60,435 bases of DNA, from contig JAHFRV010000015.1 of NCBI GenBank assembly GCA_023266095.1, forward strand, positions 1 to 60,435. Direction: 5' to 3'. The position numbers and the translations under genes are program-made. The notes beneath the pieces are model-generated. The model was not told where the DNA came from, made no database searches, and worked only from the letters and a program-made list of their open reading frames with translations. Source of the DNA: Gammaproteobacteria bacterium (GTDB lineage: Bacteria; Pseudomonadota; Gammaproteobacteria; DRLM01). This document shows, piece after piece, positions 12,766 to 52,404 of this stretch; within the stretch, counting starts at the first letter, position 1, and each line of letters begins with the position of its first letter.

Positions 12766-12918
12766 GCTGTAGAACCTCTCTGTTCATGACCATGCTGTCA
12801 ACGTCTCCCTCATCCTTGCCAGTAAAGGCCGGAGAAATGTATCACAATACAAGAAGATAAAATACCGTGGAGGGTGATTTTTCCCGATGAGGCGAGTGTT
12901 TGATGCCGAGTTGATCAC

Positions 12919-14460
12919 TTAATACCGCCACTGCCACTGCGCATCCAGCTGGCCTTCATAGTCGGTCCCGCCGGCTTGTTCGGTTCGCACCGCGCCCACG
13001 CTTAGGCTGACCTCCTGCTCGCGCCAGATCAGACGATGACCCAACTCGACACTCAGCAATGTGGGACTGGCGGGGTTGTCACGATGCGGTTCGATGCGGC
13101 GCAGCAAAATCTCCCAAGGTCTGCCGCGCTCCGTCACATATAAAAAACCGAGGGACAGCATGCGTCCGTCACCCCCCAGGGTGTGACCGATGACGCGGCC
13201 GCGATAGGTATAGCCGTCGCTATAAATACTGTGACGATAGGCGCAGCCAAACGCAGGTTGATCATTGTTGAACCCGCAAGCGGTGTCGGCATATTCGCCG
13301 TGCACCCGCCAGGAAGCACCGCGCTCGCCCCCCGCGCCCCAGGCTTCTATCCCGGCCATACCCAAATATTTGGATGGCCAGCCGCCTGATTCATCTTCTC
13401 CGATGATTTGGCCGTACACTGCATACGGTGCATCGAATAACGGCGACTGCCAGCGCACATCGAAACCGCCCAGTTGATTGCCGGGTTCATTCGCCGCGGT
13501 GATGCCGGCGGAACCACGATTGTCCTTGCCGAGCAGCAATTCCTTGAAGGTGCTCAAATCCTCCGGCCGCCCCTCACCGCCCCATTGCGCGGTACGTGAC
13601 AAACCCACTTCCAGCGCCGGCGTCGGACGGAAATTCAAACGCATGCCCATAAACAAGGCATCGGGCACTTCACGGCCGCCTTCCAATTGGCCGAGGGTGA
13701 ACAGAAATTGCCACGGCCCGATCCAACGCAGCCAGTCGTTTTGGAATGGATCGGCGTAATGGCGCTGCACGGACAAGGCGGGAATCGGCCGCGCGTTATT
13801 CGAGAGAATCAAGCTGCCGTCCCAACCCGGCCCCCACCAGCGCTCCACTGCGCCGGCGGACCAGGCCCAGTTTCCCCAGATGGCCGCCACATAAGAGCCG
13901 TCGTAGCGGACGGCTTGGTCGTCATCCGGCGCATCCACCGCGGCCATCTGCAAACGATAGGCGAACACCTCGCCGGTCCAATCGATACCCGCTTCCAGCT
14001 CACCGCCTTCGCGCGACGTATCGCCGAAGCTGCGATATGGCCGCGGGTGGTAGGCGACGGCGGCCCGCAGATGCGGACGCACAGCCTGCGTGCGCGATTC
14101 GGCGCGATAACGCCGCAATAAACGGCTACGCGCATTCGCCAGCGGTGCCGGCAACAGCTGCGCAGCGTCTTCGAGATCACGCCCGATCGCGCCCCAGGAC
14201 AACGGCCAAGCGGTGAGCGGCACACTAAGCACGCCGGCGTCGCTCAGCAATTGAATATCGTGGCGTAAGGCCGGCTCAGCAGGATCAAGCCAGGGCGCGG
14301 CCGGCGCCGCAACTGTCCACGCGCAGAGCAACGCCCATAAACTTGCGGAAACGCCGCGGAAACGCCGGGTGCAAAGCACGCTGGTCACTGTGGATAACAA
14401 TCCATGATCCTTGTGATGAAGAGGGAAACCGCTGAATAGCCTTTCGTTCTTCAAAGCCAT
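12919..14460 (-). CDS. Wzi-like capsule assembly outer-membrane protein
   Basis: The 513-residue protein has an N-terminal hydrophobic segment (SLWALLCAWTVAAPAAP, residues ~40-56), HDIQLLSDAGVLSVPLTAWP typical of the Wzi family, RWWGPGWDGSLILSNNARPI (a strongly conserved stretch), DWLRWIGPWQFLFTLGQLEG and an aromatic-rich strand pattern to the C-terminus (WQWRY), as in Wzi/CapsAssemb_Wzi barrels that anchor or assemble surface polysaccharide. The annotated start is an ATG without a clear ribosome site; a start about 25-35 residues later would put the signal peptide at the N-terminus. It is the first gene of the export part, about 150 bases upstream of the wza-like gene. Confidence 0.88.
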   Translation of the reverse strand: MALKNERLFSGFPLHHKDHGLLSTVTSVLCTRRFRGVSASLWALLCAWTVAAPAAPWLDPAEPALRHDIQLLSDAGVLSVPLTAWPLSWGAIGRDLEDAAQLLPAPLANARSRLLRRYRAESRTQAVRPHLRAAVAYHPRPYRSFGDTSREGGELEAGIDWTGEVFAYRLQMAAVDAPDDDQAVRYDGSYVAAIWGNWAWSAGAVERWWGPGWDGSLILSNNARPIPALSVQRHYADPFQNDWLRWIGPWQFLFTLGQLEGGREVPDALFMGMRLNFRPTPALEVGLSRTAQWGGEGRPEDLSTFKELLLGKDNRGSAGITAANEPGNQLGGFDVRWQSPLFDAPYAVYGQIIGEDESGGWPSKYLGMAGIEAWGAGGERGASWRVHGEYADTACGFNNDQPAFGCAYRHSIYSDGYTYRGRVIGHTLGGDGRMLSLGFLYVTERGRPWEILLRRIEPHRDNPASPTLLSVELGHRLIWREQEVSLSVGAVRTEQAGGTDYEGQLDAQWQWRY

Positions 14461-24445: not shown

Positions 24446-27400
24446 ATGAAAAGCAGCGACGTTAATTTCATACGCTATTTGTACCAGTTGAGGACCCATT
24501 TGCGCGGCGCTATTCCCGCGAAACACGCCTTTGATGAGCCTCCGTTGCGTTCGGAGTTGTTCGGCACCGAGCAAATGGAACAGCATGGCAGACGCCTCGC
24601 GGCCATGCACACCTTGACGCCACAACACGCGCAGGATCAGCTTCTATCGCGCCTGGCGGCGAACGAAACGGTCTTGGTTGATGTTTGCGGCCGGCTCATG
24701 GCGGCGGTAAAAGCCGAACAGCAGATCACGCCGGCCAGCGAATGGCTGCTCGATAACTTCTATCTGATCGAAGAGCAGATTCGTACCGCCAAGCGTCACT
24801 TCCCCAAGGGCTACAGCCGTGAATTGCCGCGTTTAGCGAATGGACCTTCGGCTGGATTACCGCGGGTATACGACATTGCGCTGGAGATTATTTCGCACGG
24901 CGATGGACGGGTGGATCCGGAAAGCCTCAACCGTTTCGTTGCCGCCTATCAGACGGTCAGCGTGCTCAAGTTGGGCGAGTTATGGGCCATCCCCATCATG
25001 CTGCGGCTGGCGCTGATCGAAAATCTGCGGCGGGTTGCCGTTCGCATTGCCGCCGGCCGGGTGGATCGTGACCTCGCTGCCGGCTGGGCGGAACAGATGA
25101 CCACGGTCGCGGAGAAGGATCCGAAGAGCCTGGTGCTGGTGATCGCGGACATGGCGCGTTCACACCCGCCGATGACGACGCCTTTTGTCTCGGAGTTTAC
25201 CCGCCGGCTGCAAGGACAAAGCCTCGCCTTGGCTTTGCCGCTGACCTGGCTCGAGCAAGTGCTCGCCGAGTCGGGCCTGACCATCGAGCAGGTCGTGCGT
25301 TCGGGAAATCAACAGCAGGCCGCCGACCAGGTTTCCATCAGCAACAGCATCGGCAGTCTGCGCTTTCTGAGTGAAGTAGATTGGCGCGACTTCGTCGAGA
25401 CCATGAGCATGGTCGAGCAAACCCTGCGCGAAGATCCTGACGGTACTTATAGTGCAATGGATTTCGCGACCCGTGACCGGTATCGGCATGTGGTCGAGCG
25501 GATTGCGAAATCCAGCCCCCTCTCCGAAACCGAGGTGGCGCGGAGCGCGGTCCAGCTTGCGCGATCGGCCCAAACGATACAGCCACTCGATCCCGCGCAT
25601 CAGGATAGTGGCGCGCGTACGGCGCATGTCGGCTTTTATTTAATCGACCGGGGCTTGAGTACACTCGAAACGAAGGTGCAAGCGCGTCTTCCCCTAGTCG
25701 CGCGCCTCGGCAGAATAAGTTCCCGTCATTCTTTGAGTCTGTATCTCGGTGCGATCGTGCTGCTGACCTTGCTGTTCAGCGCGGGCCTAGTGGCGATAGC
25801 ACGACCCCAAGTGGTGGCGGACGAGATATTGGTGCCGATCGGCCTGCTCACGTTGCTGGCCACCAGCCAGTTGGGTTTGGCGCTGGTGAATTGGCTGGTG
25901 ACTTTGTTGGTGCGACCGCATCTGCTGCCGCGCATGGATTTCTCCACCGGCATTCCTGCGCAAGCGCGGACGCTGGTGGTAGTGCCGACCCTACTCACCG
26001 ATCCGCAGAATGTCGACGATCTGCTCGAGGCGCTGGAAGTGCGTTTCCTGGCGAATTGGGACGACAATTTGTATTTCAGCTTGTTGACCGATTTTCGGGA
26101 TGCACATCAAGAAATGCTCGCCGAGGACGAGCCGCTGCTGCGGCTGGCCCTCGCGGGCATCGAGGCGCTTAATAATAAATATGGCACCCCGGATAATGAC
26201 ATATTCTTTCTTTTTCATCGTCCGCGCCGCTGGAACCCCCAAGAGCGGTGCTGGATGGGCTACGAACGTAAGCGTGGCAAGCTTGCCGACTTGAATGCAT
26301 TGCTGCGCGGTGAAACGCACAGCGCTGCCGGCGAACGTTTTTCACGCATCGCCGGCGATATCAGCTGTCTCGCCGATGTGAAGTACGTCATCACCTTGGA
26401 CACCGATACCCAGCTTCCGCGTGACGTCGTACGGCAATTGGTGGGTGCCATGATGCATCCGCTGAATCGCGCGCACTACGACGCCGAGAAACAGCGGGTC
26501 TGTGAGGGTTACGGCATTCTGCAGCCGCGGGTCAGTATGAGCCTGGAAGGTACCAACCGTTCGCGTTATGCGCGTTTGCATGGCTTCGACCCTGGCATCG
26601 ACCCCTATACCCGTGCCATCTCCGATGTCTATCAAGACCTGTTCGACGAGGGTTCGTTCATTGGTAAGGGTATCTATGACGTGGATATCGTCGAACGGGT
26701 CTTGAACGGACGCTTGCCCGAGAACCGGATTCTCAGCCACGATTTACTGGAAGGATGTTATGTGCGCGCCGGCCTATTGAGCGATGTGCATTTGTATGAG
26801 GATTATCCCGCGCATTACAGCACGGATGTGAGCCGGCGCCATCGCTGGATACGCGGCGACTGGCAGTTACTGGGGTGGCTGCGGCGGCGGGTTCCCGGCC
26901 CCGCTGGGCACCGACAGCCTAATCCGCTGTCGTGGCTTTCACAATGGAAACTCTTCGATAACCTGCGGCGCAGTCTGGTACCGATGGCATTGACGCTGCT
27001 ATTACTGCTGGGTTGGTGCCTGCTGGCATCGCCCTGGTTTTGGACGACGGCGGTGATTGGCGTCGTGTTGATTCCGCCCATAATCGTTTCTATCCTGGAA
27101 ATATTTAACAAACCGCGTGAAGTGTTGCTCAGGCAACATTTTGTCGCCGCGTTCAATACCGCCGTCCAACGCATGGCACAAGCGGTTTTTAACCTGGCCT
27201 GCCTGCCCTATGAGGCCTATTTTAGTCTGGATGCCATCCTGCGCACGGCGGGTCGCATGTTGTTCACACACCGACGGCTGCTCGAATGGAATCCTTCGGG
27301 CGAAGCGGCACGTAATAGCCGCACAGACTTGGCTTCTGCTTTGCGCGCGATGTGGATCGCGCCGCTGATCGCGGTTGCGACAATACTCTACCTGCTGTTG

Positions 27401-30400
27401 TTCAAGCCGGCCGTGCTCGCCATAGCGGCGCCTATCCTGTTGCTGTGGTTGAGCTCGCCCGTGCTGGTGTGGTGGGTCAGCCAACCGCCCGCGCGCCGTG
27501 TAGCGCAGCTGACGTTGGAGCAGAACCTTTTCCTGCGCAAGCTGACGCGCAAGACCTGGGCGTTTTTCGAGGCATTTGTCGGTCCGGAAGATCATTGGCT
27601 GCCGCCGGATAACTATCAGGAATACCGCGGCGCCGCGGTTGCGCATCGCACCTCGCCGACCAATATCGGATTGGCGCTACTCGCTAATTTAGCCGCGTAC
27701 GATTTCGGGTACCTGCCGGCGGGACAACTCATCGAGCGTACCGCGAACACCCTGCGCACGATGCAGGGCTTGCAACGTTACCGCTACCATTTTTACAACT
27801 GGTACGACACGTTATCGCTAGAGCCACTCCACCCTAAGTATATTTCGACGGTGGACAGCGGCAATCTCGCGGGCCATTTACTGACCTTGCGGCCGGGCCT
27901 GCGTGCGCTTGCCGACGACCCTATCGTGGGCGTGCGATGGTTTGACGGTCTTCAAGACACGCTGGCCATCTTGGTGGACGCCGCGGAAAGCGTTCCCTCG
28001 GACATGCTCGCCGGATTGCAGGCGGATTTCGCGGCGGCATGCGCTTCCCGGCCAACCACACTCAGGCAAGTGTGGCTTAGCCTTGATCGACTGGTTAAAC
28101 GCGCGACGGAGTTTGCCGACAGCCTCGCCGCCGGCTCGCCGGGGTCACAAAAAAGCGATAAAAAAATCGCGGCCGGAGGTGGAGATAGTGCCGTTGCAGC
28201 GGAGATGGATATTCAACATAGATATAACCAAAACGAAACGTACCCCGAAGTCGATGAAGACGGGATACTCCACCCGCGCATGAATCAAGCCGGCACAGTT
28301 CTCGCCGTCACCGCCGCCGAGAACGATGTCAGTTGGTGGGCCCTGGCCCTGGTCCGACAATGTCGCGCGGCCCACGATGAGTTGGCGTTGCTTGCACCGT
28401 GGTTATTGCTGCCGGTCGCGCCGAGCGGCTGCGGTGATCACCCCGCGCTCGATGCGATCCCAACCTTGCGTGAGTTGGCGAGATTCGAAGAAGAACTGCT
28501 ACCGCTGATCGAGCAGCAGCTGCTTGCGGCTGCTGTGACGCCGACGGAACGTGAGTGGTTGCGAGAGCTTCAACACTGCATCACGCTAGCCGGACACCGC
28601 GCCGGGGAGCGCCTGGCGGCTATCGAACGGCTGGCACGTCAGGCGGGTGACTTTGCGTGGATGGAGTATGACTTCCTGTACGACAAGGCATCGCGTTTGC
28701 TGGCGATCGGTTACAACGTGGATGAACTGCGGCGCGACCCGAGTTACTACGACCTGCTGGCGTCGGAAGCGCGATTGATCAACTTCGTCGCCATCGCCCA
28801 GGGACAAGTGCCGCAGGAGAGCTGGTTTGCCTTAGGCAGGCTGCTCACCTCGACCGGCGGTGAACCGATTCTGTTGTCGTGGAGCGGTTCGATGTTCGAA
28901 TACCTGATGCCGCTGCTGGTGATGCCGACTTTTGATAAGACTCTGCTCGATCAAACCTATCGGGCGGCGGTAGAGCGCCAGATCGAATACGGGAGGCAGT
29001 GCGGCGTAGCGTGGGGCATGTCGGAATCCGGTTATAACCTGGTCGACGCCCGTTTCAATTACCAGTATCGCGCCTTTGGCGTGCCCGGCCTGGGACTCAA
29101 ACGCGGACTCGCCGATGATTTGGTCATCGCGCCATATGCGTCGGTGCTGGCGTTGATGGTCGCGCCCGAGGCGGCGTGTCTGAATCTGCAACGACTGGCC
29201 GCCGAAGGACTGCAAGGCCGATTCGGCTTTTATGAAGCGGTCGATTACACCCCGTCTCGTCAACGTCGCGGCGAATCGAGGGCGGTGGTGCGGTCCTATA
29301 TGGCGCATCATCAGGGGATGAGTCTGCTCTCCCTGGCCTATCTGCTGCTGGATCGTCCGATGCAAAAGCGCTTCGTATCGGACCCGTTGTTCCAGGCGAC
29401 TCTGCTGTTGCTCCAGGAACGGATTCCCAGGGCCACGGCGTTCTTTCCGCACTCGGCCCAACTCTCCGACATTCGACCTATTTCCGGCGTTCAGCAAGCG
29501 TCGATTCGCGTTTTCAACCGCCCTGACACGCCGATACCGGAAGTACAGTTATTATCCAATGGCCGCTATCACCTCATGGTTACCAACGCCGGCGGCGGTT
29601 ATAGTCGCTGGAAAGATCTCGCCGTCACGCGCTGGCGCGAAGACACCACCTGCGACCACTGGGGTACCTTCTGTTATTTGCACGACCTGAGCAGCGGAGA
29701 AGTCTGGTCGACCGCCTATCAGCCGACCCTGAAACCGTCGCCGCGTTACGAAGCGATTTTTTCCGAGGGCCGCGCCGAATTCCGCCGCCGTGATCACGAT
29801 TTCGAAACTCATACCGAGATCGTGGTATCGCCGGAAGACGATATCGAGCTGCGCCGTCTCCATATCACCAATCGCGGCCGGACTCGCCGCAGCATCGCCG
29901 TTACCAGTTACGCGGAAGTGGTGCTTAACGTCGCCGCCGCCGACGCGCTGCATCCCGCCTTCAGCAATCTATTTGTACAGACCGAGATCCTCGAGCAACG
30001 CCAGGCGATACTCTGCACGCGCCGGCCGCGCTCGCTCAGCGAGCAAACACCGTGGCTGTTGCACCTGATGGCGGTGCGCGGGGCGGACAGCGACGACATT
30101 TCTTATGAGACCGATCGGATGCAATTCATCGGCCGCGGCCGCACCGCCGCCGATCCGCAAGCGCTGAGCGGCACACCGGCGCCCGCAGGCAGGCTCTCCG
30201 GCAGTCAAGGTTCGGTGTTGGACCCGATCGTCGCCATCCGTCATGTCATCAGCCTCGATCCGCAACAAACGGTCATCATTGATATGGTGACCGGCATGGG
30301 AGAAAGCCGCGATGCAGTGTTAGGCCTGGTCGAAAAATACCACGATAGACGGCTCGCGGACCGCGTTTTCGAACTCGCCTGGACACACGCCCATGTGGTG

Positions 30401-33400
30401 TTACGCCAGCTCAACGCCAGCGAGGCCGATGCGCAACTCTACGGACGTCTAGCCAATTGCGTGGTCTATGCCAATGCCTCGCTGCGCGCCGATGCCGGCA
30501 TCCTGGTCCAGAATCGCCGCGGGCAATCCGGTTTATGGAGTTACGCCATTTCCGGCGACTTGCCCATCGTGCTGTTGCAGATTGGCGACGCGGCCAATAT
30601 CGAACTGGTTCGGCAACTGGTGCAGGCGCATGCCTATTGGCGTTTGAAAGGGCTGGCGGTGGACTTGGTGATCTGGAACGAGGACCACGCCGGTTACCGG
30701 CAACTGCTTCAAGATCAAATTATCGGTTTGATCGCAGCGGGGGTCGAAGCGCATGTGATCGATCGGCCGGGCGGCATCTTCGTGCGCCCCGCGGAACAGA
30801 TATCGCACGAAGACCGCATCCTGTTCCAATCCGTCGCGCGCGTCATCATCAGCGATAGCCGCGGCACGCTGGCGGAACAGATCAACCGTCGGCAGCTTCG
30901 GGAGGTGCGGGTGCCACGCTTGCAACCGACCCGCAGCCACCGCGCCGAATCCGCGGTCGGCAGCGAATCGCGGCGCGATCTCATTCTGGACAACGGTCTG
31001 GGTGGATTCACCCCGGACGGACACGAGTATGTCATTACCACCACCGCCGAGCAAAAGACGCCCGCGCCGTGGGTGAACGTGCTCGCGAATGCGCATTTCG
31101 GTACGGTCATTTCCGAAAACGGCATGGCTTATACCTGGAGCGAGAATGCGCACGAGTTCCGTCTCACGCCCTGGCACAACGATCCGGTGTCCGATGCGAG
31201 TGGCGAAGCGTTTTATCTGCGCGATGAAGAAAGCGGTCATTTCTGGTCACCCACACCGCTGCCCAGCCGCGGTGCGAATGCCTATGTCAGCCGGCACGGA
31301 TTCGGCTACAGCGTGTTCGAACATAACGAAGCGGGCATCGTCTCAGAGTTGTGGGTATACGTGGCACTGGACGCGGCGGTCAAGTTCTCGGTATTGAAAG
31401 TACGCAACACCTCAGGCCGGCCGCGGCGGCTGTCCGCCACAGGCTGTGTGGAATGGGTATTGGGCGATTTGCGGCCGAAATCGACGCCGCACGTGCTTAC
31501 CGAAGTGGATGCCGAGAGCGGCGCGCTGTTCGCGCGCAATCCTTACAACATGGAATTCGCCGACCGGATCGCCTTCTTCGACGTGGATGACTCCAACCGC
31601 ACCATCAGCGGCGACCGCGGCGAATTCATCGGCCGTAATGGTTCGCTGAAAAATCCGGCGGCGATGTCGCGCGCACGGTTGTCGGGTAAGGTGGGCGCGG
31701 CGCTCGATCCCTGCGCCGCGATCCAAGTGAGCTTCGATTTGGTCGACGGGCAAGAACGCGAGATCGTCTTCCGGTTAGGTATTGCCGGAAGACGCGGCGC
31801 CGATGACGCGCGCAAACTGGTCCGCCGTTTCCGCGGATCGGCCGTCGCGCATAATGTGCTCGAAGCGGTGCATCAGTATTGGAATCACACGCTCGGCGCC
31901 GTGCAAGTGGAAACACCCGACGCGTCGCTCAACGTGCTGACCAACGGCTGGCTGGTGTACCAAACGCTGGCCTGCCGTCTGTGGGCACGCAGCGGCTATT
32001 ATCAATCGGGCGGCGCCTTCGGTTTCCGCGACCAGTTGCAGGACGTGATGGCGCTGGTTCACGCCGAGCCGCAACGGGTACGCGAGCAATTACTATTGTG
32101 TGCGGCACATCAATTTGTCGAAGGCGATGTCCAGCATTGGTGGCATCCGCCGGCGAGTCGCGGCGTGCGCACCCATTGTTCCGACGATTACCTCTGGCTG
32201 CCGCTGGCGGTGTGCCGCTATGTGTCTTGCACCGGCGATACCGGCGTGCTGGATGAATCCATTTCCTTTCTCGAAGGCCGTCCAGTCAACCCCGGCGAAG
32301 ACTCGTATTACGATCTGCCAGGACACTCCAGCGCTACCGCCAGCCTGTATCAGCATTGCGTACGGGCGATCCGGCACGGCCTGCGTTTCGGCGAACATGG
32401 CCTGCCGCTGATCGGCTCCGGCGATTGGAACGACGGCATGAACTTGGTGGGCTTGCACGGCAAGGGCGAAAGCGTCTGGCTCGGCTTCTTCTTATATGAA
32501 GTGCTGACCCGTTACGCTGAATTGGCGGAGCGGATGGGCGACTCGTCGTTTGCCGAGCAGTGCCGGACCGACGCCGCGCAGCTGCGCCGGCATATCGAAC
32601 AATACGCCTGGGACGGCGGTTGGTACCGCCGCGCTTACTTCGACGACGGCACCCCACTGGGATCGGCGGCCAATAGCGAATGCCAAATCGATTCGATCTC
32701 GCAAAGCTGGTCGGTCATTTCCAGCGCCGGTGATGCGGCACGTTCACGCCAAGGCATGGATGCCGTCTATGCCCGTCTGGTGCGGGGTGATCACGGACTG
32801 ATTCAACTCTTGGATCCTCCGTTCGATACCGCGGATATGGATCCAGGGTACATTAAAGGTTACGTGCCCGGCGTGCGTGAAAATGGCGGGCAATATACCC
32901 ATGCCGCCATTTGGACCGTGATGGCGTTCGCCGCCTTGGGCGACAGCCGGCGCGCCTGGGAATTGTTGGAGATGATCAATCCCGTCAATCACGCAAAATC
33001 GCCAGCGGGCGTGGCGATCTATAAAGTCGAACCCTACGTGGTCGCCGCCGACGTCTACGCGGTTGCGCCGCACACCGGTCGCGGCGGATGGAGTTGGTAC
33101 ACAGGCTCGGCCGGCTGGATGTACCGGCTGATCGTGGAATCCCTGCTGGGCCTAAGGCTGGAAGTGGACAAACTGTATTTCGCGCCTTGCCTACCCGCGA
33201 ATTGGACGGCGTTCAAACTGCACTACCGGTATCGAGAGACGGTTTACCATATCGCCGTGACGCAAACGGTAACCGCCGCTGTGGCGCACAGCGACGCGAT
33301 GCGCGTGACGGTGGATGGCGTCGAACGCTCGGACAACACCATTCCACTGACCGACGACCACCTGGATCACGTCGCCGAAGTGAAAATAATCACATTGCCA

Positions 33401-33454
33401 GCCGTGCACCAACCACAATCAGCTCAAACTGCGCATGACTTAAGAAACCTCTGA
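24446..33454 (+). CDS. ndvB: Cyclic beta-1,2-glucan synthase (NdvB type, GT84-GH94)
   Basis: The 3002-residue protein has the known order of the family. An N-terminal region is followed by membrane segments (residues ~430-500) and a GT84 glycosyltransferase with ITLDTDTQLPRDVV (DxD), EGCYVRAGLLSDVHLYEDYP and RHRWIRGDWQLLGWLRRR, then further membrane segments (~840-1010). The glycoamylase-like region has VAWGMSESGYNLVDARFNYQ and YMAHHQGMSLLSLAYL, and the C-terminal GH94 phosphorylase has FGFRDQLQDVMALVHAEP, HCSDDYLWLPLA, GSGDWNDGMNLVG (catalytic Asp) and GYVPGVRENGGQYTHAAIW. The enzyme initiates, elongates, trims and cyclises periplasmic glucan in the inner membrane. It is slightly longer than rhizobial NdvB. 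No strong ribosome site precedes the ATG, and an in-frame stop lies just upstream. It seems to be transcribed alone. Confidence 0.95.
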   Translation: MKSSDVNFIRYLYQLRTHLRGAIPAKHAFDEPPLRSELFGTEQMEQHGRRLAAMHTLTPQHAQDQLLSRLAANETVLVDVCGRLMAAVKAEQQITPASEWLLDNFYLIEEQIRTAKRHFPKGYSRELPRLANGPSAGLPRVYDIALEIISHGDGRVDPESLNRFVAAYQTVSVLKLGELWAIPIMLRLALIENLRRVAVRIAAGRVDRDLAAGWAEQMTTVAEKDPKSLVLVIADMARSHPPMTTPFVSEFTRRLQGQSLALALPLTWLEQVLAESGLTIEQVVRSGNQQQAADQVSISNSIGSLRFLSEVDWRDFVETMSMVEQTLREDPDGTYSAMDFATRDRYRHVVERIAKSSPLSETEVARSAVQLARSAQTIQPLDPAHQDSGARTAHVGFYLIDRGLSTLETKVQARLPLVARLGRISSRHSLSLYLGAIVLLTLLFSAGLVAIARPQVVADEILVPIGLLTLLATSQLGLALVNWLVTLLVRPHLLPRMDFSTGIPAQARTLVVVPTLLTDPQNVDDLLEALEVRFLANWDDNLYFSLLTDFRDAHQEMLAEDEPLLRLALAGIEALNNKYGTPDNDIFFLFHRPRRWNPQERCWMGYERKRGKLADLNALLRGETHSAAGERFSRIAGDISCLADVKYVITLDTDTQLPRDVVRQLVGAMMHPLNRAHYDAEKQRVCEGYGILQPRVSMSLEGTNRSRYARLHGFDPGIDPYTRAISDVYQDLFDEGSFIGKGIYDVDIVERVLNGRLPENRILSHDLLEGCYVRAGLLSDVHLYEDYPAHYSTDVSRRHRWIRGDWQLLGWLRRRVPGPAGHRQPNPLSWLSQWKLFDNLRRSLVPMALTLLLLLGWCLLASPWFWTTAVIGVVLIPPIIVSILEIFNKPREVLLRQHFVAAFNTAVQRMAQAVFNLACLPYEAYFSLDAILRTAGRMLFTHRRLLEWNPSGEAARNSRTDLASALRAMWIAPLIAVATILYLLLFKPAVLAIAAPILLLWLSSPVLVWWVSQPPARRVAQLTLEQNLFLRKLTRKTWAFFEAFVGPEDHWLPPDNYQEYRGAAVAHRTSPTNIGLALLANLAAYDFGYLPAGQLIERTANTLRTMQGLQRYRYHFYNWYDTLSLEPLHPKYISTVDSGNLAGHLLTLRPGLRALADDPIVGVRWFDGLQDTLAILVDAAESVPSDMLAGLQADFAAACASRPTTLRQVWLSLDRLVKRATEFADSLAAGSPGSQKSDKKIAAGGGDSAVAAEMDIQHRYNQNETYPEVDEDGILHPRMNQAGTVLAVTAAENDVSWWALALVRQCRAAHDELALLAPWLLLPVAPSGCGDHPALDAIPTLRELARFEEELLPLIEQQLLAAAVTPTEREWLRELQHCITLAGHRAGERLAAIERLARQAGDFAWMEYDFLYDKASRLLAIGYNVDELRRDPSYYDLLASEARLINFVAIAQGQVPQESWFALGRLLTSTGGEPILLSWSGSMFEYLMPLLVMPTFDKTLLDQTYRAAVERQIEYGRQCGVAWGMSESGYNLVDARFNYQYRAFGVPGLGLKRGLADDLVIAPYASVLALMVAPEAACLNLQRLAAEGLQGRFGFYEAVDYTPSRQRRGESRAVVRSYMAHHQGMSLLSLAYLLLDRPMQKRFVSDPLFQATLLLLQERIPRATAFFPHSAQLSDIRPISGVQQASIRVFNRPDTPIPEVQLLSNGRYHLMVTNAGGGYSRWKDLAVTRWREDTTCDHWGTFCYLHDLSSGEVWSTAYQPTLKPSPRYEAIFSEGRAEFRRRDHDFETHTEIVVSPEDDIELRRLHITNRGRTRRSIAVTSYAEVVLNVAAADALHPAFSNLFVQTEILEQRQAILCTRRPRSLSEQTPWLLHLMAVRGADSDDISYETDRMQFIGRGRTAADPQALSGTPAPAGRLSGSQGSVLDPIVAIRHVISLDPQQTVIIDMVTGMGESRDAVLGLVEKYHDRRLADRVFELAWTHAHVVLRQLNASEADAQLYGRLANCVVYANASLRADAGILVQNRRGQSGLWSYAISGDLPIVLLQIGDAANIELVRQLVQAHAYWRLKGLAVDLVIWNEDHAGYRQLLQDQIIGLIAAGVEAHVIDRPGGIFVRPAEQISHEDRILFQSVARVIISDSRGTLAEQINRRQLREVRVPRLQPTRSHRAESAVGSESRRDLILDNGLGGFTPDGHEYVITTTAEQKTPAPWVNVLANAHFGTVISENGMAYTWSENAHEFRLTPWHNDPVSDASGEAFYLRDEESGHFWSPTPLPSRGANAYVSRHGFGYSVFEHNEAGIVSELWVYVALDAAVKFSVLKVRNTSGRPRRLSATGCVEWVLGDLRPKSTPHVLTEVDAESGALFARNPYNMEFADRIAFFDVDDSNRTISGDRGEFIGRNGSLKNPAAMSRARLSGKVGAALDPCAAIQVSFDLVDGQEREIVFRLGIAGRRGADDARKLVRRFRGSAVAHNVLEAVHQYWNHTLGAVQVETPDASLNVLTNGWLVYQTLACRLWARSGYYQSGGAFGFRDQLQDVMALVHAEPQRVREQLLLCAAHQFVEGDVQHWWHPPASRGVRTHCSDDYLWLPLAVCRYVSCTGDTGVLDESISFLEGRPVNPGEDSYYDLPGHSSATASLYQHCVRAIRHGLRFGEHGLPLIGSGDWNDGMNLVGLHGKGESVWLGFFLYEVLTRYAELAERMGDSSFAEQCRTDAAQLRRHIEQYAWDGGWYRRAYFDDGTPLGSAANSECQIDSISQSWSVISSAGDAARSRQGMDAVYARLVRGDHGLIQLLDPPFDTADMDPGYIKGYVPGVRENGGQYTHAAIWTVMAFAALGDSRRAWELLEMINPVNHAKSPAGVAIYKVEPYVVAADVYAVAPHTGRGGWSWYTGSAGWMYRLIVESLLGLRLEVDKLYFAPCLPANWTAFKLHYRYRETVYHIAVTQTVTAAVAHSDAMRVTVDGVERSDNTIPLTDDHLDHVAEVKIITLPAVHQPQSAQTAHDLRNL

Positions 33455-42887: not shown

Positions 42888-44705
42888 ATGCGTCCATCCA
42901 GTAGCCCCACCCCCACCGGTCGCCAAGACTGGCGAGCCATCCGCACTCTATTACCCTACCTCTGGGAATACCGCACCCGGGTGATGTGGGCCATGGGCTG
43001 TCTGATCCTCGCCAAAGCCGCTACCGTTGCCATTCCCTTGATGCTCAAAGGCATCGTCGATCAGCTGGACGTCGCCCACAATCCGGTGCTGATCCTGCCC
43101 GTCGCTTTTTTGATCGGCTACGGTGCCATGCGCCTCGCGAGTTCAGCCTTCGGCGAGCTGCGCGATGCCATTTTCGCCAAAGTCACTCAACGAGCCATCC
43201 GCCGGGTCGCTCTGCAAGTCTTCCGTCATCTGCACAAACTCGCTCTCAAATTCCATTTGGAGCGTCAGACCGGCGGCGTATCGCGCGACATCGAACGCGG
43301 CTCGCGCGGCATCAGCTTTCTGCTGACTTTTATGCTGTTCAATGTCATTCCCACCCTGGTCGAGATCGGACTGGTGGCCTTGATCCTGTTCATCAATTAT
43401 CAAGCCTCATTCGCGATCATCACCTTCGCCACCGTGACGCTGTATATCGTGTTCACCCTGATCACCACTGAGTGGCGCATGAAGTTCCGCCGTCAGATGA
43501 ATGAGATGGACTCCAAGGCCAACACCCGCGCCATCGACAGCCTGCTCAACTACGAAACGGTGAAATATTTCGGCAACGAGGACTACGAGGCCCGTCGCTA
43601 CGATGAGAATCTCGCAGTGTGGGAACAGGCCGCGGTGCGCAATCAGACCTCGCTGTCCTTTCTCAACTTCGGCCAAGGCGCGATCATCGCCGCCGGCATC
43701 ACCTGGCTGATGTTCCTCGCCGCCGAAGGCGTAGTGGCCAAGACGCTGACCATGGGCGACCTGGTGCTGATCAACGCGTATTTATTGCAATTGTTTATTC
43801 CCATGAACTTCCTCGGCTTCGTCTACCGCGAGATCAAACACTCGCTGGCCGATATGGAAAAGATGTTCAGCCTGCTCGATCAGAATGCCGACGTCAGCGA
43901 CAAATCCGACGCCAAAGAACTCATCGTCGGCGACGGCGCCGTGCGTTTCGAGGCTGTGAACTTCGGCTACACACCGCAGCGCCAAATCCTCTTCGAGGTC
44001 GACTTCGATATACCCGCCGGCCACAAAGTGGCGGTGGTGGGCCACAGCGGCTCCGGCAAATCCACTCTTGCCCGCCTGTTGTTCCGTTTTTACGATGTGA
44101 ACGGCGGCCGGATAACGATCAATGGCCAGGACATCCGCGGCGTAAGGCAGCACAGCCTGCGCGCCGCTATCGGCATCGTGCCGCAGGACACCGTACTGTT
44201 CAACGACACGCTTTACTACAACATCCAGTACGCCAAACCGGATGCGCCGCGCGAGGACGTGATCCGCGCCGCCCAGATGGCCCACATCCACGACTTCATC
44301 GAGTCGCTGCCGGAAGGGTATGACACCCAAGTCGGCGAACGCGGCCTCAAACTCTCGGGCGGCGAAAAACAGCGCGTCGCCATCGCCCGCGTCATTTTAA
44401 AAAATCCGCGTATCCTGATCTTCGATGAAGCCACCTCGGCGCTCGACTCCAAATCGGAACAAGCCATCCTCGCCGAACTGCGCAACGTCGCCACCGATCA
44501 CACCACCCTGGTGATCGCCCACCGCCTCTCCACCATCATCGACGCCGAACAAATCCTGGTAATGGATCACGGCCGCATCATCGAGCGCGGCAACCACCAA
44601 GCGCTACTCGCCAGCGGCGGCAGTTATGCCCAGATGTGGGCGCTGCAACAGGAGGAGCGGAAAAAGGGCGCGGTGGAATCCACTGCCTCTTTGGCAGTCG
44701 ACTGA
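42888..44705 (+). CDS. ABC transporter, fused permease and ATPase (Atm1/HMT type)
   Basis: The 605-residue half-transporter has six membrane segments (residues ~25-310) containing FHLERQTGGVSRDIERGSRG and FGNEDYEARRYDENL (NYETVKYFGNE is typical of Atm1/HMT1 mitochondrial-type exporters). The ATPase has Walker A VVGHSGSGKSTLARLLFRF, Q-loop GIVPQDTVLFNDT, signature KLSGGEKQRVAIAR, Walker B ILIFDEATSALDSKSE and an IAHRLST switch. Relatives export glutathione-linked metals or persulfides from the cytosol. It is transcribed alone; no clear terminator follows. Confidence 0.93.
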   Translation: MRPSSSPTPTGRQDWRAIRTLLPYLWEYRTRVMWAMGCLILAKAATVAIPLMLKGIVDQLDVAHNPVLILPVAFLIGYGAMRLASSAFGELRDAIFAKVTQRAIRRVALQVFRHLHKLALKFHLERQTGGVSRDIERGSRGISFLLTFMLFNVIPTLVEIGLVALILFINYQASFAIITFATVTLYIVFTLITTEWRMKFRRQMNEMDSKANTRAIDSLLNYETVKYFGNEDYEARRYDENLAVWEQAAVRNQTSLSFLNFGQGAIIAAGITWLMFLAAEGVVAKTLTMGDLVLINAYLLQLFIPMNFLGFVYREIKHSLADMEKMFSLLDQNADVSDKSDAKELIVGDGAVRFEAVNFGYTPQRQILFEVDFDIPAGHKVAVVGHSGSGKSTLARLLFRFYDVNGGRITINGQDIRGVRQHSLRAAIGIVPQDTVLFNDTLYYNIQYAKPDAPREDVIRAAQMAHIHDFIESLPEGYDTQVGERGLKLSGGEKQRVAIARVILKNPRILIFDEATSALDSKSEQAILAELRNVATDHTTLVIAHRLSTIIDAEQILVMDHGRIIERGNHQALLASGGSYAQMWALQQEERKKGAVESTASLAVD

Positions 44706-45005
44706 GGAAAATCGGTCACAGAGACGTTATGGAAATCCTGAATGATTCCTACCACGTCAGCCCGGTGAAGCCGCAAACCGGCAATATCGATATGGGCGCT
44801 GGGACTGGGCCGCGCTGCTCCCGTATGATCCGCGCTTTGACGGTTATCAGCGCGCCGGGAACTACGCTACGAAACAGTCTGCAGCGCCTGGACTGATGAC
44901 AACAAACTCTGCGAACGTCTTACCGTCTTTCAAAGACGATGTGATGGGCCGTGCCTTCTCATTTTTATACTCGGCGGCATATCCCTGCGTCTATTCACTC
45001 CCTCC
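44706..45005. other. Gap of ~300 bases with a possible gene fragment
   Basis: A plus-strand frame near 44793-44890 reads DWAALLPYDPRFDGYQRAGN and looks protein-like, but has no start or ribosome site. It may be a decayed gene end. The family is unknown. Confidence 0.25.
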
Positions 45006-48000
45006 TCAAAAGCGACGCAGGACGCCGATGCGCGGCACGAGAAATTCCGTATCGCTGCCGCTGGTGAAGATGAGATGGTAGTCGACGCCCGCCTCAATGC
45101 TCCAGTATCGATCGATGTTGTAGTCCACACCCAGACCGCCATTGCCGCCAACGCGGATTGAGCCGCTCTCCGGAATATAGATGCCTAGACCGGCGGTGAT
45201 GTAAGGCCGCAGACCTTGGGGCGTGAAAGCGTATTTGACATTAGCGGTGAGACTCCACCAATAGGTGTCACTGACTGCCGTCGTGTCACCCTTGAAGGCG
45301 TGATAAGCCGCGGCGCCGACAAAAGAGAGTTGCGGTGTGACATGGTAATCGAGGTCCAGGGCAAGACTGTAGTCGCCGTCGTAGAGATTGTTCAGCGAGC
45401 CCCGCGGGATGGTGGCACCGAGATGCAAGCTCAAATCAAGACGTCGCTGCGCAGGTAGTTTGGAGGCCGAGCCTGCGTAAAGCCGCTGATCCAGCACGAC
45501 GACACTGATGTCGGGATCGGCAGCGGTGGGCACCTCCAACCAGGCCTCGTACGCGCCATCGAGGAGATCGCGAATATCCGATGCCACGCTACCGGGCGCC
45601 ACGGTGATGTGGATGCGATCGGCGTAGTCCGGTCCCAGATAGTTGCCGTGCGCATCCAACGGCTCTATGCGCAAACGCAGGCGATCGACATCGCTACCCA
45701 CGATGCGCTCGATCACGCTCAGGTCCGAGGTGTCGATGTCGGCCTGCGCAAATTCGATCAGCGTGGATAGGGTTTCGGTGCGCGTATAAGGGCCAATGTC
45801 CGGGTGTTCACCGGCGATGGTAAATTCCACCGTGTAGATGCCGGGCACGTCGGTATCGGCAAAGCTCGCGACGTAAAAGCCGTTGCTGTGATGGACCAGC
45901 GGGATTTCTCTGACCAGGGACTGCACCTTGTCCCAGAACCCGGGTGTTTGCAGCAGCCGTTCCAGTTTCAACTGCCCGCCGGTGGCGGCAGGCTCACCGC
46001 CGTCACTCGGACCCGGCGTGGGTGTGGTCGACAGCAGCGTGCCCAGACCTTGCCCCGGCGTGCGGATGCGTGCAATAGCGGTTCCCGCGTCGGTGAGTGC
46101 CTCTCCATTCACGCTCAGGCGCGCCAGTAGTTGCAGCGGCTCACCGAGCTTGGGCCGGTTGCCTAGGGAGAATACATAATCCAGACCTGCCTCGTCGGCG
46201 ATGGCGGCGGCCTCGTAATGCTCGCCTTTGACCCCGCTGAGAGATATCTGCCACGGCCCTTGCGGCAGCACATGGATGCCACGCATGGCGGGAATGTCGG
46301 CCAGGTCGAGGGAGAAAATCCGATAGTAATCGCCGCGCACAAGCTGGCCGTATTGAATCAGGTCGCGGCCGTCCTTTGCTATGCCGGTGATCTCCACGGG
46401 GGTTTGGCCGCGTTGCCAACTCACCTTGAAAAACAGCCGCCGCGTACTGCTGCTGACCACAAAACTCTCGGCCTGTGTCGTCGATCTCAATTGGCCGTGG
46501 CGATAATCGATGAGCTGCGGGCTGGCCTCCCGCAACGCATCGACCAGTTGCTCCACATAGAAGCGCCGCAGATCGTCGTCGGGGGCGACGGTAAATTGGC
46601 TCACCCCACCGGTCGCCGTGGCGATATCGGTGAGCAGCGCGACGAAGGGATCGGTCGCTCCGACGCCGATGGTGTTTATCTTGCGGTCGAGGTCGATATC
46701 GAGCGCGGTGGGCGGGACGGTCGGATCGACGTCGGAATTAGTGCGGCCGGGTTGGTTGTCGATGTGCAGCTCGGCGTCGCTGCGCACCACCATGGGATTG
46801 ACGTTTTGCATGCCGTCGGTGAAGAGAATGACGTTGCGCGGCCGCGTCGCGTCCGTCAACCGATTGATGGCGGATTGCAGGCCCCCGCCCATGGGCGTGA
46901 GATTGCGCGTCACGGTCGTCTGCGCCTGCACATCCGCAATCACCGCGCCGGCGTTGTCCGGCACCGTGAACAGCGCATCACCGGCGACGGTGAACTCCCG
47001 CACCGACAGGTTCTGGAAATAGGTGACGCCGAGGCGGTGTTCGGGCACCGCCATGCGGCTCCACAGCTGCACGAAGATTTCCACGGCATCCTTCAATACC
47101 TGAAGCTTGGGCGCGCAGGTCGGACAGGCCGGCGACAGCATGCTGCCGGAGAGTTCCAAGACCAGCATGACGTCCACGGGGTTTTGCGCCGTCAGGGGTT
47201 GCGCCGGCGAATACACCAGCGAATAACGCTGCGGCCCTTCGGCCACCGAGTGACCGCTGACGGTGACGGTGTAGGTCGCGCCAGCCGCGGGTGGTGTGAC
47301 CACCACCTGCTCCAGATTGTTGAGGTGGTCCTCCCTATCCTGACGTGCGTTGTCGGCGGGATGGGCCGCGTCCAGTGTCCAGGGAAAATAGCGCGTGCCG
47401 GCGGCGTCAGTAATCACCAGGTCAAGATCGTTCACCAAGGCCACGGCCGCGCCCGGCAGGGCTGGCGCGTCGTCCCACGCCAGCGTGAAGCGGGCCGGGC
47501 CGCCGCCAGCGGGCACAGTGAAGGAATAGGGTACCGTCTGACCGTCATCCACCTGATCCTCGATTACCGATTGGTCATGGATCAAATCGATTGCATCGTT
47601 GATATGCAACAGGCCATAGCCCGAGGCGTAGTCCGGCCCCGGGTTGTAGGTAGTGGCGTCGTCCATATCCAGGGCGCTGTGCACCAGCAGGGACTTGACC
47701 GTGGACGGCAGCGGATCACTTAAGCCGGGAAACTGATCGCGCCAGGCCTGGATCAACAAGGCCACGGCGGCGGAGGTCTGCCCGTGGCGACCGTAGTTCG
47801 CCACGGTAGTGTCGTAATAGGTGGTGAGATAGCCTTGCGCCGTCGCGTCCCACACGGAAATGCCGGCGCTGTTGGTGCCGTTGTGGTGGCCCGAGGCGAC
47901 CAGCTCGGGCTTGATACGCCCATCGGCCAAAGGGCCCCAGCTGCTGTAGGCGCTCATACGGTTGTTGGCCGCCGGCGCCGAATCCACGGCGCCGATGACC

Positions 48001-49285
48001 AGGATGTTCTTGGCCGCCTTGGGCGAGTTGATCGAGCCGTAATTGCGAAAGGGGGCGGCGTGATCCACCGTGCACCCGTCCAGCACGTCGGCGCCGGCGG
48101 CTGAGTCCCACCAGCCGTCGCGCTCGTTGCCGGCCGAGAAGACGATGCTCAGCGGGCGCTCGAAACCCTCGGCAGACTCACCGCGAACAGCCGCGTCCAA
48201 TATTGGACTGAGATCGATATACTCACCATAAGGATAGGCGGCGCAACCGCCGATGCGGCCCCAGGCATTGCTGACCACCACCGCCCGATGGGTGTTAACG
48301 GCGGTCTGCAGGTCACCGAAATAGTTGGCGTCCTCGGCCGCGGTGTCGGCATCTTTATAGGCATGGCTGTACAGGGTCGAGGCCGGCGCCATGCCGCGAT
48401 AACGCTCGGCGTTGGCGCCCGCCTCGCCGTCACCGGCAATGAAACCCGCGGTCATGGTCGGATGAAAGTTAGCCATGTCAGTCGGATCGGTGTCGCCCTT
48501 ATGGGCGCGCGCCACACCGCCGGTGGTGAAATCCGGATGGTTCCAATTGGCATGCTGGTATTCGAGCACGCCGATGACCACACCGTCGCCGTCACCGCTG
48601 GCGGCCTGCACGACATCCACCCGCGGGTGTTGGCGTGCTCTGTCCGCCTCCGGTCGAGCGGGTGGGGCACTGGCTTCGATCCACTGCACCGCATCGTCGG
48701 CCGCCAGGTCACCCACGGCTGTTTGCGGCACGAGTACCACAAAGCGGCGCAGCTGCGGATAGCTCTCGGCAATCACCACACCCGAGTCCTCGAGGCGGCC
48801 GCGCAACGCCTTGCCTTCGGCATCGGCGAAATACGTAACGACTAACCGCAGGCGACCCTCCGCCTCACGGGCCCCTGGCCAGACACGCCCGGCGCGCAGT
48901 CCAGGCTCCAGCTTGTCCTCCGGCTCGATCGCACCGACCCAACGCAGCTTGGACAAGGCCGGATGCCCGCGGCCAAACTCACCGGCACCGAGGCGAACCA
49001 GGTGTTGTGCGGGACATAGTTCAACAGCTGCACCCCCGCCTGTTGCAAAGCAAACTTCTGCTCCGCGTCGGGGATGCGTTCGAACTGGAGCAGCATATGC
49101 ACACGCTCGCCTTTGGCGCGCGCGATGACGGTATTAAACGCAATGGGTCGATCGGCGGGCGGTGAAAACTTACGGGACTTGAGTTGTATCTCCAAGACAT
49201 TTTGCCCAAGGGGCTTACCATAGACCAAGCCGAGCGGTTCGACCAGAAAGAGTCCGATGATTACAGTAAACAATACGCGTTTCAT
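45006..49285 (-). pseudogene. S8 protease-VWA-outer membrane barrel protein, split by one frameshift
   Basis: The first frame starts at ATG 49283-49285 with a signal peptide (VLFTVIIGLFLVEPLGLVYG). It reads to VSLAAG and then shifts at about 48960; the second frame continues HPALSKLRWVGAIEPEDKLE to the stop at 45006, giving about 1,420 residues in all. Counting from the in-frame Met at 48956, the S8 domain has IGVLEYQHANWNHPD (Glu132 where Asp is expected), FHPTMTAGFIAG (His165), FSAGNE (Asn276) and HGQTSAAVALL (Ser395). A beta-sandwich follows (~465-585), then a VWA domain (~593-790) with ELSGS (Glu601), linker domains, and a 160-residue C-terminal barrel with alternating aromatic strands ending VLRRF. 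The whole looks like a secreted, outer-membrane-anchored protease. The frameshift may be a sequencing error. Confidence 0.8.
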
Positions 49286-50047
49286 CTTGGTGTCTCCCAT
49301 CCTTGACTATCTGGGTCGGCAGTCAGATGAATAGTCGCGTCTCTATTGGCGCGGGTGTCGTCACTCTTCAGCCTCGCTGATCAATGTAAACAAAGATGAG
49401 GAGGCTCCTGGCGCGCGCATCACCGGATACCGGTCTTGTTCAATCCGTTGTGATTTTGTGAACCCTTTTTATAACCATAGTTGACCAGGCAGAAACTGCA
49501 ACGACAATGTGTGAGACGGTGTGTCGTTTAAGTGGCCGGCGATAAATCCCGCGTTTTCCCGGCCGAAAGATAGCCTGTGGACGTATTCTCCAGGCGTGCG
49601 GGAAGGCGACGACACGCAGCATAAAATGAAAATCGTTATCGACAAAATACTCGATCAAGCAGAGGTGGTATCGACGCAACCTCTTCTTGAAGAGCAAGAC
49701 CACCATCACAATCATCGACGCGAGTCTCCAAATGGCAGAATCGCCTACTTGAATATTCGTGAACAAGCGGCGTCTTAGCGTCAATATGAAATGGACCTAT
49801 CTCAAAAGCGGATTAACCAAAATCCTGTCATAGATGACACCACGACAATTGCGATATTTCCCGAAAAATACTGATGTCGAGGATGATTCATCAAATTGTT
49901 TTTAGCCTCCATTTCAATTTTGAGATAGGTTCATAGAAAAACGGGGATTCCTTATCTTCGGTTCTGCACCACTCCCATGGAGATGATGCGGAAAATCAAC
50001 TTTGATCGGAGCACCCCACCTATTAACCCGGCAATCAATTACATGAA
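49286..50047. other. Gap of ~760 bases containing a MITE-like element
   Basis: No gene I can support. Overlapping open frames at 49440-49784 occur on both strands without ribosome sites. The element at 49791-49934 is described separately. Confidence 0.4.
49791..49934. mobile_element. 144-bp MITE-like element with 17-bp terminal inverted repeats
   Basis: ATGGACCTATCTCAAAA at the left end and the reverse complement of ATGAACCTATCTCAAAA at the right end match at 16 of 17 positions. The interior is AT-rich and non-coding. No obvious target duplication is seen. The parent IS is not in the window. Confidence 0.65.
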
Positions 50048-50812
50048 TTAAGCGGCATAAGAAATTTTGTTGTGCCGAAACTATGTCTGAACCCGAGTAG
50101 GCTTCTTTTGCAACATGCGCATATGACTCACCACCTTTGCTGCCAGTGGCTTCCTGTTTCGCGCAGGTTCCCCACTGTGAACACCGGCTTTTAAATCGCA
50201 ATTGAGATACTCATCGGGATTCAACTCAGGCGAATACGAGGGGAAGTAAAAGACCTCGATTTTGTCCTTCTGCTCTGCAAGCCACGCCTTTGCAATTTTG
50301 GCATGATGCACTCGCAGATTATCCAATATCAAAATGACTTTGCCGTTGGCGGTTTTTATCAATCGTTTCATAAAATCGATCGGCAAATCTGCATTCATAG
50401 TGCCTTCAAATAATCTGAAACGTACTTTCCCCTGATTCGTCACCGCGGAGATCATGTTGATTGACTCGCGCTTGGCATTGAGCTCGATCATAGGCGTTTT
50501 CCCCTTTGGCGGATAACCTCGCTCGTGCTGACAGTCATTGCGCAGCCCTGTCTCGTCACCCCAGTAAATCTCGGCATTTTCCCGCTTGGTCTGCGCCTTG
50601 ATTACCGGATACGCTTCATTCAGCCATTGCTTAACGGCCTCAGGGCGCTGTTCATAGGCCTTCTTCAATGATTTCTGGGGCGTGATGCCCCAGCGCGTGA
50701 GGTATTCACCGACCGTGCGAATGGGGAGTTCTATTCCGGCACGCTGATGAATAACCTCTTGTACCGATTTACGTGGCCATAACGCATAGGCAAGCTTTCC
50801 CGCCTCATTTCA
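50048..50812 (-). mobile_element. Truncated IS630-family transposase
   Basis: The minus-strand frame reads NEAGKLAYALWPRKSVQEVI and RTVGEYLTRWGITPQKSLKK (end of the HTH region), then the DDE domain: EIYWGDETGL, KVILILDNLRVHHAKIA, FPSYSPELNPDEYLNCDLKAG. A TAG at 50081 interrupts the tail, and the same frame continues FRHNKISYAA to TAA at 50048-50050, the normal IS630 C-terminus. The N-terminal ~100 residues are missing; the frame meets a stop at about 50815. The truncated end abuts the AMP phosphorylase gene on the other strand, so the insertion or deletion probably shaped that gene's upstream region. Confidence 0.85.
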
Positions 50813-50844
50813 AACCTCACCCCAAGCTGTGCTAACGTAGTCCC

Positions 50845-52404
50845 ATGGACAAGCCAAATGCCCCCCCGCCCGGCGAACCGCTCACTCTGCGGCGCGTCGC
50901 CATCGATACCTACCGCGAAAACGTCGCCTATCTGCATCGTGACTGCGCGGTGTACCGCGCTGAAGGCTTCCAGGCCTTATCGAAGGTCGAAGTGCGCGCC
51001 GACGGCGTTCGCATCCTCGCAGTGCTCAATGTTGTGGATGACAGCGTCATCGTCACCGAGCATCAGTTAGGCTTGTCGGAGCAGGCCTACACCCAGCTCG
51101 GCTTGCAGGAAGGTGCGCCCATCACGATTGATCATGCCGAACCGCCCCGTTCCATGGACGCCGTGCGGCGCAAGATGCTCGGCGAACGCCTCACCGCAGC
51201 AGACCTCCACGCCATCGCCTTCGAGATTGCCGACCATCGTTATTCGAAGATGGAGATGGCGGCGTTTTTGGTAGCCTCGGCGCAGGCGGGTCTCGACCGC
51301 GATGAGGTGTTGCACCTCACGCGGGCGATGGTGGATTCGGGCGACCGCCTCGACTGGCAGGAACCGCTGGTGGCGGACAAACATTGCATCGGCGGCATCC
51401 CCGGCAATCGCAGCTCCATGCTGGTGGTGCCCATCGTCGCCGCCCACGGCATGCTGATTCCGAAAACCTCGAGCCGCGCCATCACATCCCCCGCCGGCAC
51501 CGCCGACACCATGGAAGTCTTGGCCGAGGTGAATCTCGCGCCGGAGAGGCTGCGCGACATCGTGCGTCATCACCGCGGTTGCCTGGCCTGGGGCGGCACC
51601 GCCCGCCTCGCGCCGGTGGACGATGTCTTGATTTCGGTGGAGCGGCCGCTCGGCATCGACGCACCGGGGCAGATGGTCGCCTCCATTCTCGCCAAAAAAC
51701 TCGCGGCCGGCTCGACGCATCTGCTCATCGACATTCCGGTCGGTCCCACCGCCAAAGTGCGCCACATGCGCGAGGCATTACAACTGCGCAAATTGTTCGA
51801 ATACGTCGGTGACCGTCTGGGCTTGCATATCGAAGTGGTCATCACCGACGGCCGCCAACCCATCGGCCGCGGCATCGGCCCCTTACTCGAAGCGCGCGAT
51901 GTCATGCAGGTGCTGGAGAATCACCCGCAGGCGCCGGCGGATCTGCGGCAAAAAGCCCTGCGGCTCGCCGGCCGGGTGCTGGAATTCGACCCCGACGTGC
52001 GCGGCGGCCAAGGTTTTGCCATCGCCCGCGACATCCTCGACTCCGGCCGCGCCCTGGCCAAGATGAACGCGCTCATCGACGCCCAGAGCCGGCGCACACC
52101 GGCCCCGCAACTCGGCACCATCAGCTACGAAGTCGGCGCCGAGCAAAGCGGCGTGGTCACCGCCATCGACAATTTCCTGCTGGCGCGCATCGCGCGCATG
52201 GCCGGCGCGCCCATGGACAAAGGCGCGGGGGTGGATCTGCTGAAAAAATTGGGCGACACGGTGGAACAGGGCGAACCGCTTTATCGGGTGTATGCCGAAT
52301 TCAACGCCGACTTCAAATTCGCCCGCGCCTTCAATGCCGAACACGGCAGCGGTTACCGCATCGGCACGGCGGACGAAGTGCCGAAATTATATGTGGAGTT
52401 TTAA
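50845..52404 (+). CDS. AMP phosphorylase / thymidine phosphorylase family
   Basis: The 519-residue protein has an N-terminal domain of ~100 residues seen in archaeal-type AMP phosphorylases but not in short DeoA. It is followed by the pyrimidine phosphorylase core: [52 protein letters not shown] (phosphate-binding), [20 protein letters not shown], and the barrel-hammerhead C-terminal half [20 protein letters not shown]. Archaeal homologues turn AMP and phosphate into adenine and ribose-1,5-bisphosphate. Bacterial members of this long type are less studied. The gene is followed by a PRPP synthetase and a DUF1614 gene on the same strand. Confidence 0.8.

Follow-up and report, generated by a model that had tools for sequence, protein, structure and literature searches.

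A subtilase-like head, a VWA core and an eight-strand outer-membrane barrel fused in one gammaproteobacterial gene

The fusion gene and its surroundings

The fusion gene is carried by the minus strand at positions 45006-49285 of the window, the 60,435-nucleotide stretch of DNA that was analysed here as a whole. Its main ORF, 45006-48956(-), encodes 1316 aa, and a second ORF in a different frame, 48842-49300(-), encodes a signal peptide together with the initial half of a prodomain. The signal peptide (MKRVLFTVIIGLFLVEPLGLVYG, 49217..49285(-)) was identified by eye: it is read from the Met at 49285, downstream of an additional in-frame Met at 49300, and aligns to the N-terminus of two intact relatives, L050 and L060. 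The first half of the prodomain (48968..49216(-)) follows in this upstream frame, with 47-48% identity to residues 4-105 of the same relatives (E 1e-27), and the second half lies together with the start of the S8 region in the main ORF (residues 1-122, 48591..48956(-), aligned with L050/L060). Because residues 8-111 of the upstream-frame fragment align with residues 4-105 of the relatives and residue 1 of the main ORF aligns with their residue 110, the two ORFs are consecutive parts of one gene with a single frameshift. The frames join at 48956..48968(-), where fragment residue 111 corresponds to residue 105 of the relatives, and other genomes have intact copies. The earlier note had described one reading line of about 1,420 residues; all of its parts are present in one gene and in the order given, but they are divided between two ORFs in different frames.

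Together with a DDE_3 transposase fragment (50081..50668(-), PF13358 E 1.1e-38), the fusion gene lies within the 6.1 kb found between an ABC transporter gene and a thymidine phosphorylase gene (window 44705-50845). The gap between these flanking genes measures 450 bp in G003 and 162 bp in G004, which represent two related genera. A congener (G001) has a different 9 kb at the same site, and in G002 other genes again follow the transporter. Given this variable content across G001-G004 and the window, the fusion gene was probably acquired at an insertion-prone site. The VWA core of the encoded protein was not found in congener G001, and the gene's own genome has no second copy of it. Elsewhere in the window, a polysaccharide export cluster (10270-14460) comprises a Poly_export/SLBB protein and a Wzi-type capsule assembly protein, and a 3002-aa ORF with GH94 and glucoamylase-type domains (24446-33454) probably encodes a cyclic beta-glucan synthase.

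The S8 head and the VWA core

The head of the protein is an S8 subtilase-like domain of the KP-43 type (ORF residues 123-448, 47613..48590(-)), which matches PF00082 (E 4.7e-25) and whose closest relatives in the PDB are KP-43 (1wmd, E 1.8e-24) and SubHal (5fax). The alignment with 1wmd and 5fax extends through the C-terminal beta-sandwich of KP-43, unbroken for 1wmd up to residue 431, and places the remaining S8 region and a KP-43-like beta-sandwich at 47202..47612(-). Both an S8 fold and a following sandwich had been proposed from the sequence, and the S8 identity of the head is assigned here from profiles alone. In two modelling attempts, the head reached a pLDDT of ~25-40, a low confidence ascribed to the few S8 rows in the alignment, and these models were not interpreted.

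At the catalytic positions of the window protein, His165, Asn277 and Ser395 are kept and Glu132 replaces the Asp. The same substitution is observed in L050 and L060, the other two S8-VWA-barrel proteins: in all three, the Asp-His-Ser triad is incomplete (His and Ser kept, Glu for Asp), the GTS motif reads QTS (QTSAA in the window) and the oxyanion Asn is retained, as AGN or TGN in the alignment. The window protein thus shares with KP-43 and SubHal an S8 domain and the sandwich behind it, and differs from them in the Glu, the QTS motif and the fused VWA, Ig-like and barrel regions. The S8 domain of L054 keeps an Asp, and the same-family S8 paralogues L006-L010 have canonical His and GTS motifs. 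The three proteins offer a subtilase branch, open to experimental test, in which Glu stands where the catalytic Asp is expected. In the window copy only, ~7 residues are absent directly after Ser395, and its catalytic-Ser helix (the GTSxA motif with the residues behind it) is not intact. A KP-43-like S8 paralogue, whose GTSMAS motif is canonical and whose tail is GlyGly-CTERM-like, lies on another contig of the same genome (G000:C43:38675-40383, L002 and L003); it is interrupted in the assembly by an N run and stops, and intact counterparts (L006-L009) are found in same-family genomes.

The S8 region is followed by a VWA domain (ORF residues 590-811, 46524..47189(-)). From this domain through the barrel, the AlphaFold model has a pLDDT of ~90, and the comparison of the VWA model with 4fx5 (Z 22.5, rmsd 2.2 over 194 residues) indicates a Rossmann-type VWA fold. 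A profile built from the family core matches VWA proteins of the PDB at E ~1e-12; scanned as a single sequence, the window protein has no VWA match in Pfam and matches VWA only at E 0.024 in NCBIfam. The VWA domain claimed in the earlier note is therefore borne out by both profile search and structure prediction. Its MIDAS retains T687 and D714 and reads ExSGS, with Glu for the first-position Asp. In the motif table, this Glu is confined to the window, and the other 24 of the 25 members have DxSxS. A CPTC motif lies directly after the MIDAS loop.

Past the VWA domain, the secondary structure of the model shows a beta-sandwich and linker that are conserved in 25 relatives (ORF residues ~812-1013, 45918..46523(-)). 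Two Ig-like units follow (ORF residues ~1014-1160, 45477..45917(-)), one choice-of-anchor-X-like and one Invasin-D3-like; the Ig-like linker proposed earlier is supported by matches of relatives to NF041940 and PF09134 and by a Foldseek match to invasin (1cwv). The core formed by the VWA domain, the beta-sandwich and the two Ig-like units would act as a binding and spacer module, in which the MIDAS could bind a protein partner or substrate and keep either near the enzyme.

That the window copy, regardless of what the family does, is a decaying pseudogene or an inactive pseudo-enzyme is a serious contender at somewhat below even chances. Decay would account for the frameshift between 48968 and 48956, the absence of ~7 residues behind the catalytic Ser and the change from DxSGS to ExSGS in this copy alone among 25, and it would suit a gene that adjoins a mobile-element fragment and whose VWA core was not found in congener G001. 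However, the 1316 codons are otherwise open with normal codon-position GC throughout, apart from the frameshift every loss preserves the reading frame, and 38 of the 39 strongly conserved core columns are retained, the exception being the first MIDAS residue. With one deviating column in 39 and codon bias kept, the core still looks coding, and since the assembly is a draft, the frameshift may be erroneous. Either the damage to the gene is recent, or the frameshift is a sequencing mistake in a gene whose head and MIDAS have been retuned. Judged from its sequence, the window copy may be inactive (frameshift, post-Ser loss, MIDAS Asp to Glu), and its protease activity, including any residual catalysis, is doubtful given the Glu for Asp, the ~7 missing residues and the MIDAS Glu.

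The barrel and the topology of the protein

The protein ends in an eight-strand outer-membrane barrel with a C-terminal Phe (ORF residues 1168-1316, 45009..45455(-)), in agreement with the small barrel recognized in the earlier note. It matches the OMP_b-brl profile (PF13505, E 1.7e-7), and its AlphaFold model has eight strands and matches NspA with Z 20.2 over 145 residues. Most of the strands are amphipathic, with alternating polar and hydrophobic residues, and the links are short and of near-constant length; an orientation test weakly favours an N-terminus on the inside. The fold is that of the eight-strand barrels NspA, OmpA, OprF and OmpW (Z ~20), but here the barrel anchors a very large protein at its C-terminus. 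With S8 autotransporters (type Va), the window protein shares a signal peptide, an S8 head and a C-terminal outer-membrane barrel. It differs from them in the eight-strand OMP_b-brl barrel, the lack of an autotransporter domain and the VWA domain in between. No Pfam match to the autotransporter barrel PF03797 was obtained in the window protein, and a type V autotransporter was rejected on this ground and on the strand number (eight, not 12), which upholds the contrast with 12-strand S8 autotransporters drawn earlier.

The barrel raises a clear question of topology, namely whether the head is periplasmic or surface-exposed. An even-stranded C-terminal barrel leaves the preceding chain in the periplasm unless there is a separate export route, and the best-known such route for cargo with an eight-strand barrel is T11SS/Slam (PF04575). 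A periplasm-facing head is favoured because the barrel is even-stranded and because TM-anchored relatives would place their heads there too; from the strand number and turn pattern, the head most likely faces the periplasm, tethered to the outer membrane.

The earlier suggestion of a surface adhesin-protease places the head outside the cell, with the barrel as anchor and a specialized export system (autotransport, T11SS-like or T2SS) as carrier, and it is considered unlikely. Heads such as a prodomain-bearing subtilase, M36 or lipase are typical of secreted enzymes and would also suit surface exposure by some other route, and adhesins are known to contain VWA and invasin-like Ig domains. T11SS cargo also combines a variable N-terminal effector and a beta 'pedestal' with a C-terminal eight-strand barrel (PMC12282271), a plan resembled here by the variable N-terminal effector, the beta-rich middle and the barrel. 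However, the barrel is not of the autotransporter type and has only eight strands, and it resembles membrane barrels (NspA, OmpA). Unlike that of T11SS cargo, it is of the membrane type with a terminal Phe, and no TbpB-type domain was matched in the window protein by Pfam or structure comparison. The T11SS outer-membrane protein PF04575 was not found in the window's own genome (G000), in that of L050 (G057) or in that of L060, and is absent from 14 of the 16 genomes searched. T11SS export was rejected because PF04575 was not detected in genomes with the S8-VWA-barrel order, and the predicted periplasmic position of the head makes the surface location first suggested the less likely reading.

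A modular family and the exchange of its parts

The same domain order occurs unbroken in two other genomes: in L050 (1454 aa, from the Ectothiorhodospiraceae MAG G057) and L060 (1465 aa, from a Chromatiaceae MAG), one uninterrupted frame encodes S8, VWA, Ig and barrel. The relatives thus keep these parts fused, and the VWA and barrel folds are both predicted. At E 1e-30, no further S8-VWA-barrel carrier was found in 398 genomes of the phylum, and the architecture is therefore rare. When relatives were gathered by searching with the core alone, matches were obtained in Pseudomonadota, Bacteroidota, Planctomycetota, Acidobacteriota, Thermodesulfobacteriota, Chloroflexota, Zixiibacteriota and others; none was found on a plasmid. 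Their heads comprise S8 domains in proteins without an anchor (L054 from Marimonas, L056 from Planctomycetota), an M36 fungalysin (L063), a GDSL lipase with DUF6242 (L068), lipase-like alpha/beta hydrolases (L018/L057, L062, L073), a calcineurin-type phosphoesterase (L019/L069), beta-propellers (L051, L052), a redoxin (L070) and a CHAP domain (L074), and a trypsin-like LVITAGHC motif was recognized by eye at the N-terminus of L028. At the C-terminus, 14 of 25 proteins have an outer-membrane barrel; L057, L059, L072 and L075 have a TM helix followed by a short tail, with no match of the TM tails to known sorting signals above the cut-off; and further members are anchorless. The fusion that had been called unusual in design is real, but its design is one example among those of a broader modular family.

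The core tree contains two deep groups. In nearly all members of the branch formed by the window protein and L050-L062, a CxxC motif (ACPxC) directly follows DxSGSM, possibly as a disulfide or a metal site. The motif is missing in the other branch (L065-L069, L072, L073, L075). Mapped on this tree, the heads change 11 times, a rough figure since 'unknown' was scored as a state and some labels (that of L059 and the 'unassigned' ones of L065-L067, L072 and L075) were set by eye.

The barrel of the window protein departs from the grouping of its core. Core identity is 60% to L050, 59% to L060 and 23-26% to L065-L069; barrel identity is 50-51% to L065-L067 and 27-28% to L050/L060. The switch falls at residues ~1150-~1210, the border between the Ig-like units and the barrel. 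In the barrel tree, the window groups with L063 and L065-L069 (support 100/99) and L050/L060 lie outside. In a test whose clade was taken from the core tree, constraining the window barrel to join L050/L060 is rejected (delta lnL 71, p-AU 7e-5). Because a barrel origin shared with L050/L060 is rejected, the anchor of the window copy was exchanged, its barrel coming from the other main branch. This exchange is the strongest new result: the sequences document a real swap in which an eight-strand outer-membrane barrel serves as an interchangeable anchor. L051 provides the complementary case, as in the trees its core and its barrel both fall close to those of L050 and its head is a beta-propeller; together, the barrel swap and this difference in head indicate that head and anchor are exchanged separately.

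An assembly chimera at the barrel junction, or throughout the fusion, would likewise give a barrel whose closest relative differs from that of the rest of the protein, and the draft genome consists of 110 contigs. Such an artefact is nevertheless highly improbable: two further assemblies have the same domain order, the nearest known relative of the barrel shares only ~50% identity with it, the genome has no second core copy, and reading frame and codon bias are continuous across the junction.

On balance, the window protein is best read as an S8-headed member of a modular envelope family, with independent exchange of head and anchor, a periplasmic head and a swapped barrel. Sec export, BAM insertion and folding aided by a prodomain are established for these families. 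A secreted-type enzyme would be plugged in at the N-terminus of the core and a membrane anchor at its C-terminus. After export by Sec, the subtilisin-like head would fold with the help of its prodomain, BAM would insert the eight-strand barrel in the outer membrane through the C-terminal Phe, and the head would most likely hang into the periplasm. In the family's evolution, head and anchor have been exchanged independently of each other.

The nearest described architecture is that of the CLCA proteins, which, bacterial ones included, consist of a metalloprotease, VWA, DUF1973 and Fn3 (PMC3650047). The likeness lies in an N-terminal protease followed by VWA, a beta-sandwich and Ig/Fn3-like units; the difference lies in the head, which is S8 rather than CLCA_N, and in the C-terminal outer-membrane barrel. 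The CLCA model TIGR00868 is matched by 9 of the 25 cores, with the window protein below the model, and the core matches the CLCA1 VWA structure 6pyo (E 3.7e-5). CLCA_N (PF08434) was not found in the window's own genome, and a single sub-threshold match in 369 genomes of the class left nothing usable for profile comparison. Head exchange has a precedent, since replacement of CLCA_N by M10 or CHAP is reported for two prokaryotes (PMC3650047). Proteins with choice-of-anchor X (NF041940, matched by 9 of 25 relatives at E 0.01, the window not among them) similarly place a small domain beside a C-terminal anchor, but the members of the present family vary the N-terminal head too. In a literature search, no description was found of S8-VWA-barrel fusions, of the outer-membrane barrel anchor and its exchange between branches, or of the Glu-type S8 head. 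The present protein connects bacterial enzyme-VWA fusions with the CLCA architecture known from animals. More tentatively, the family could represent a cross-phylum plug-in envelope platform, built on one VWA-sandwich-Ig core, with enzyme heads and anchors that are independently interchangeable by recombination, whole barrels included, that contains a Glu-His-Ser subtilase branch and is a prokaryotic counterpart of CLCA.

Two further relatives extend the range of forms. In an Aminicenantes protein (L070:5494-7719), the redoxin domain precedes the VWA core, and in L024 (G343) the core lies within a 2368-aa open frame that ends in a TM helix and a basic tail.
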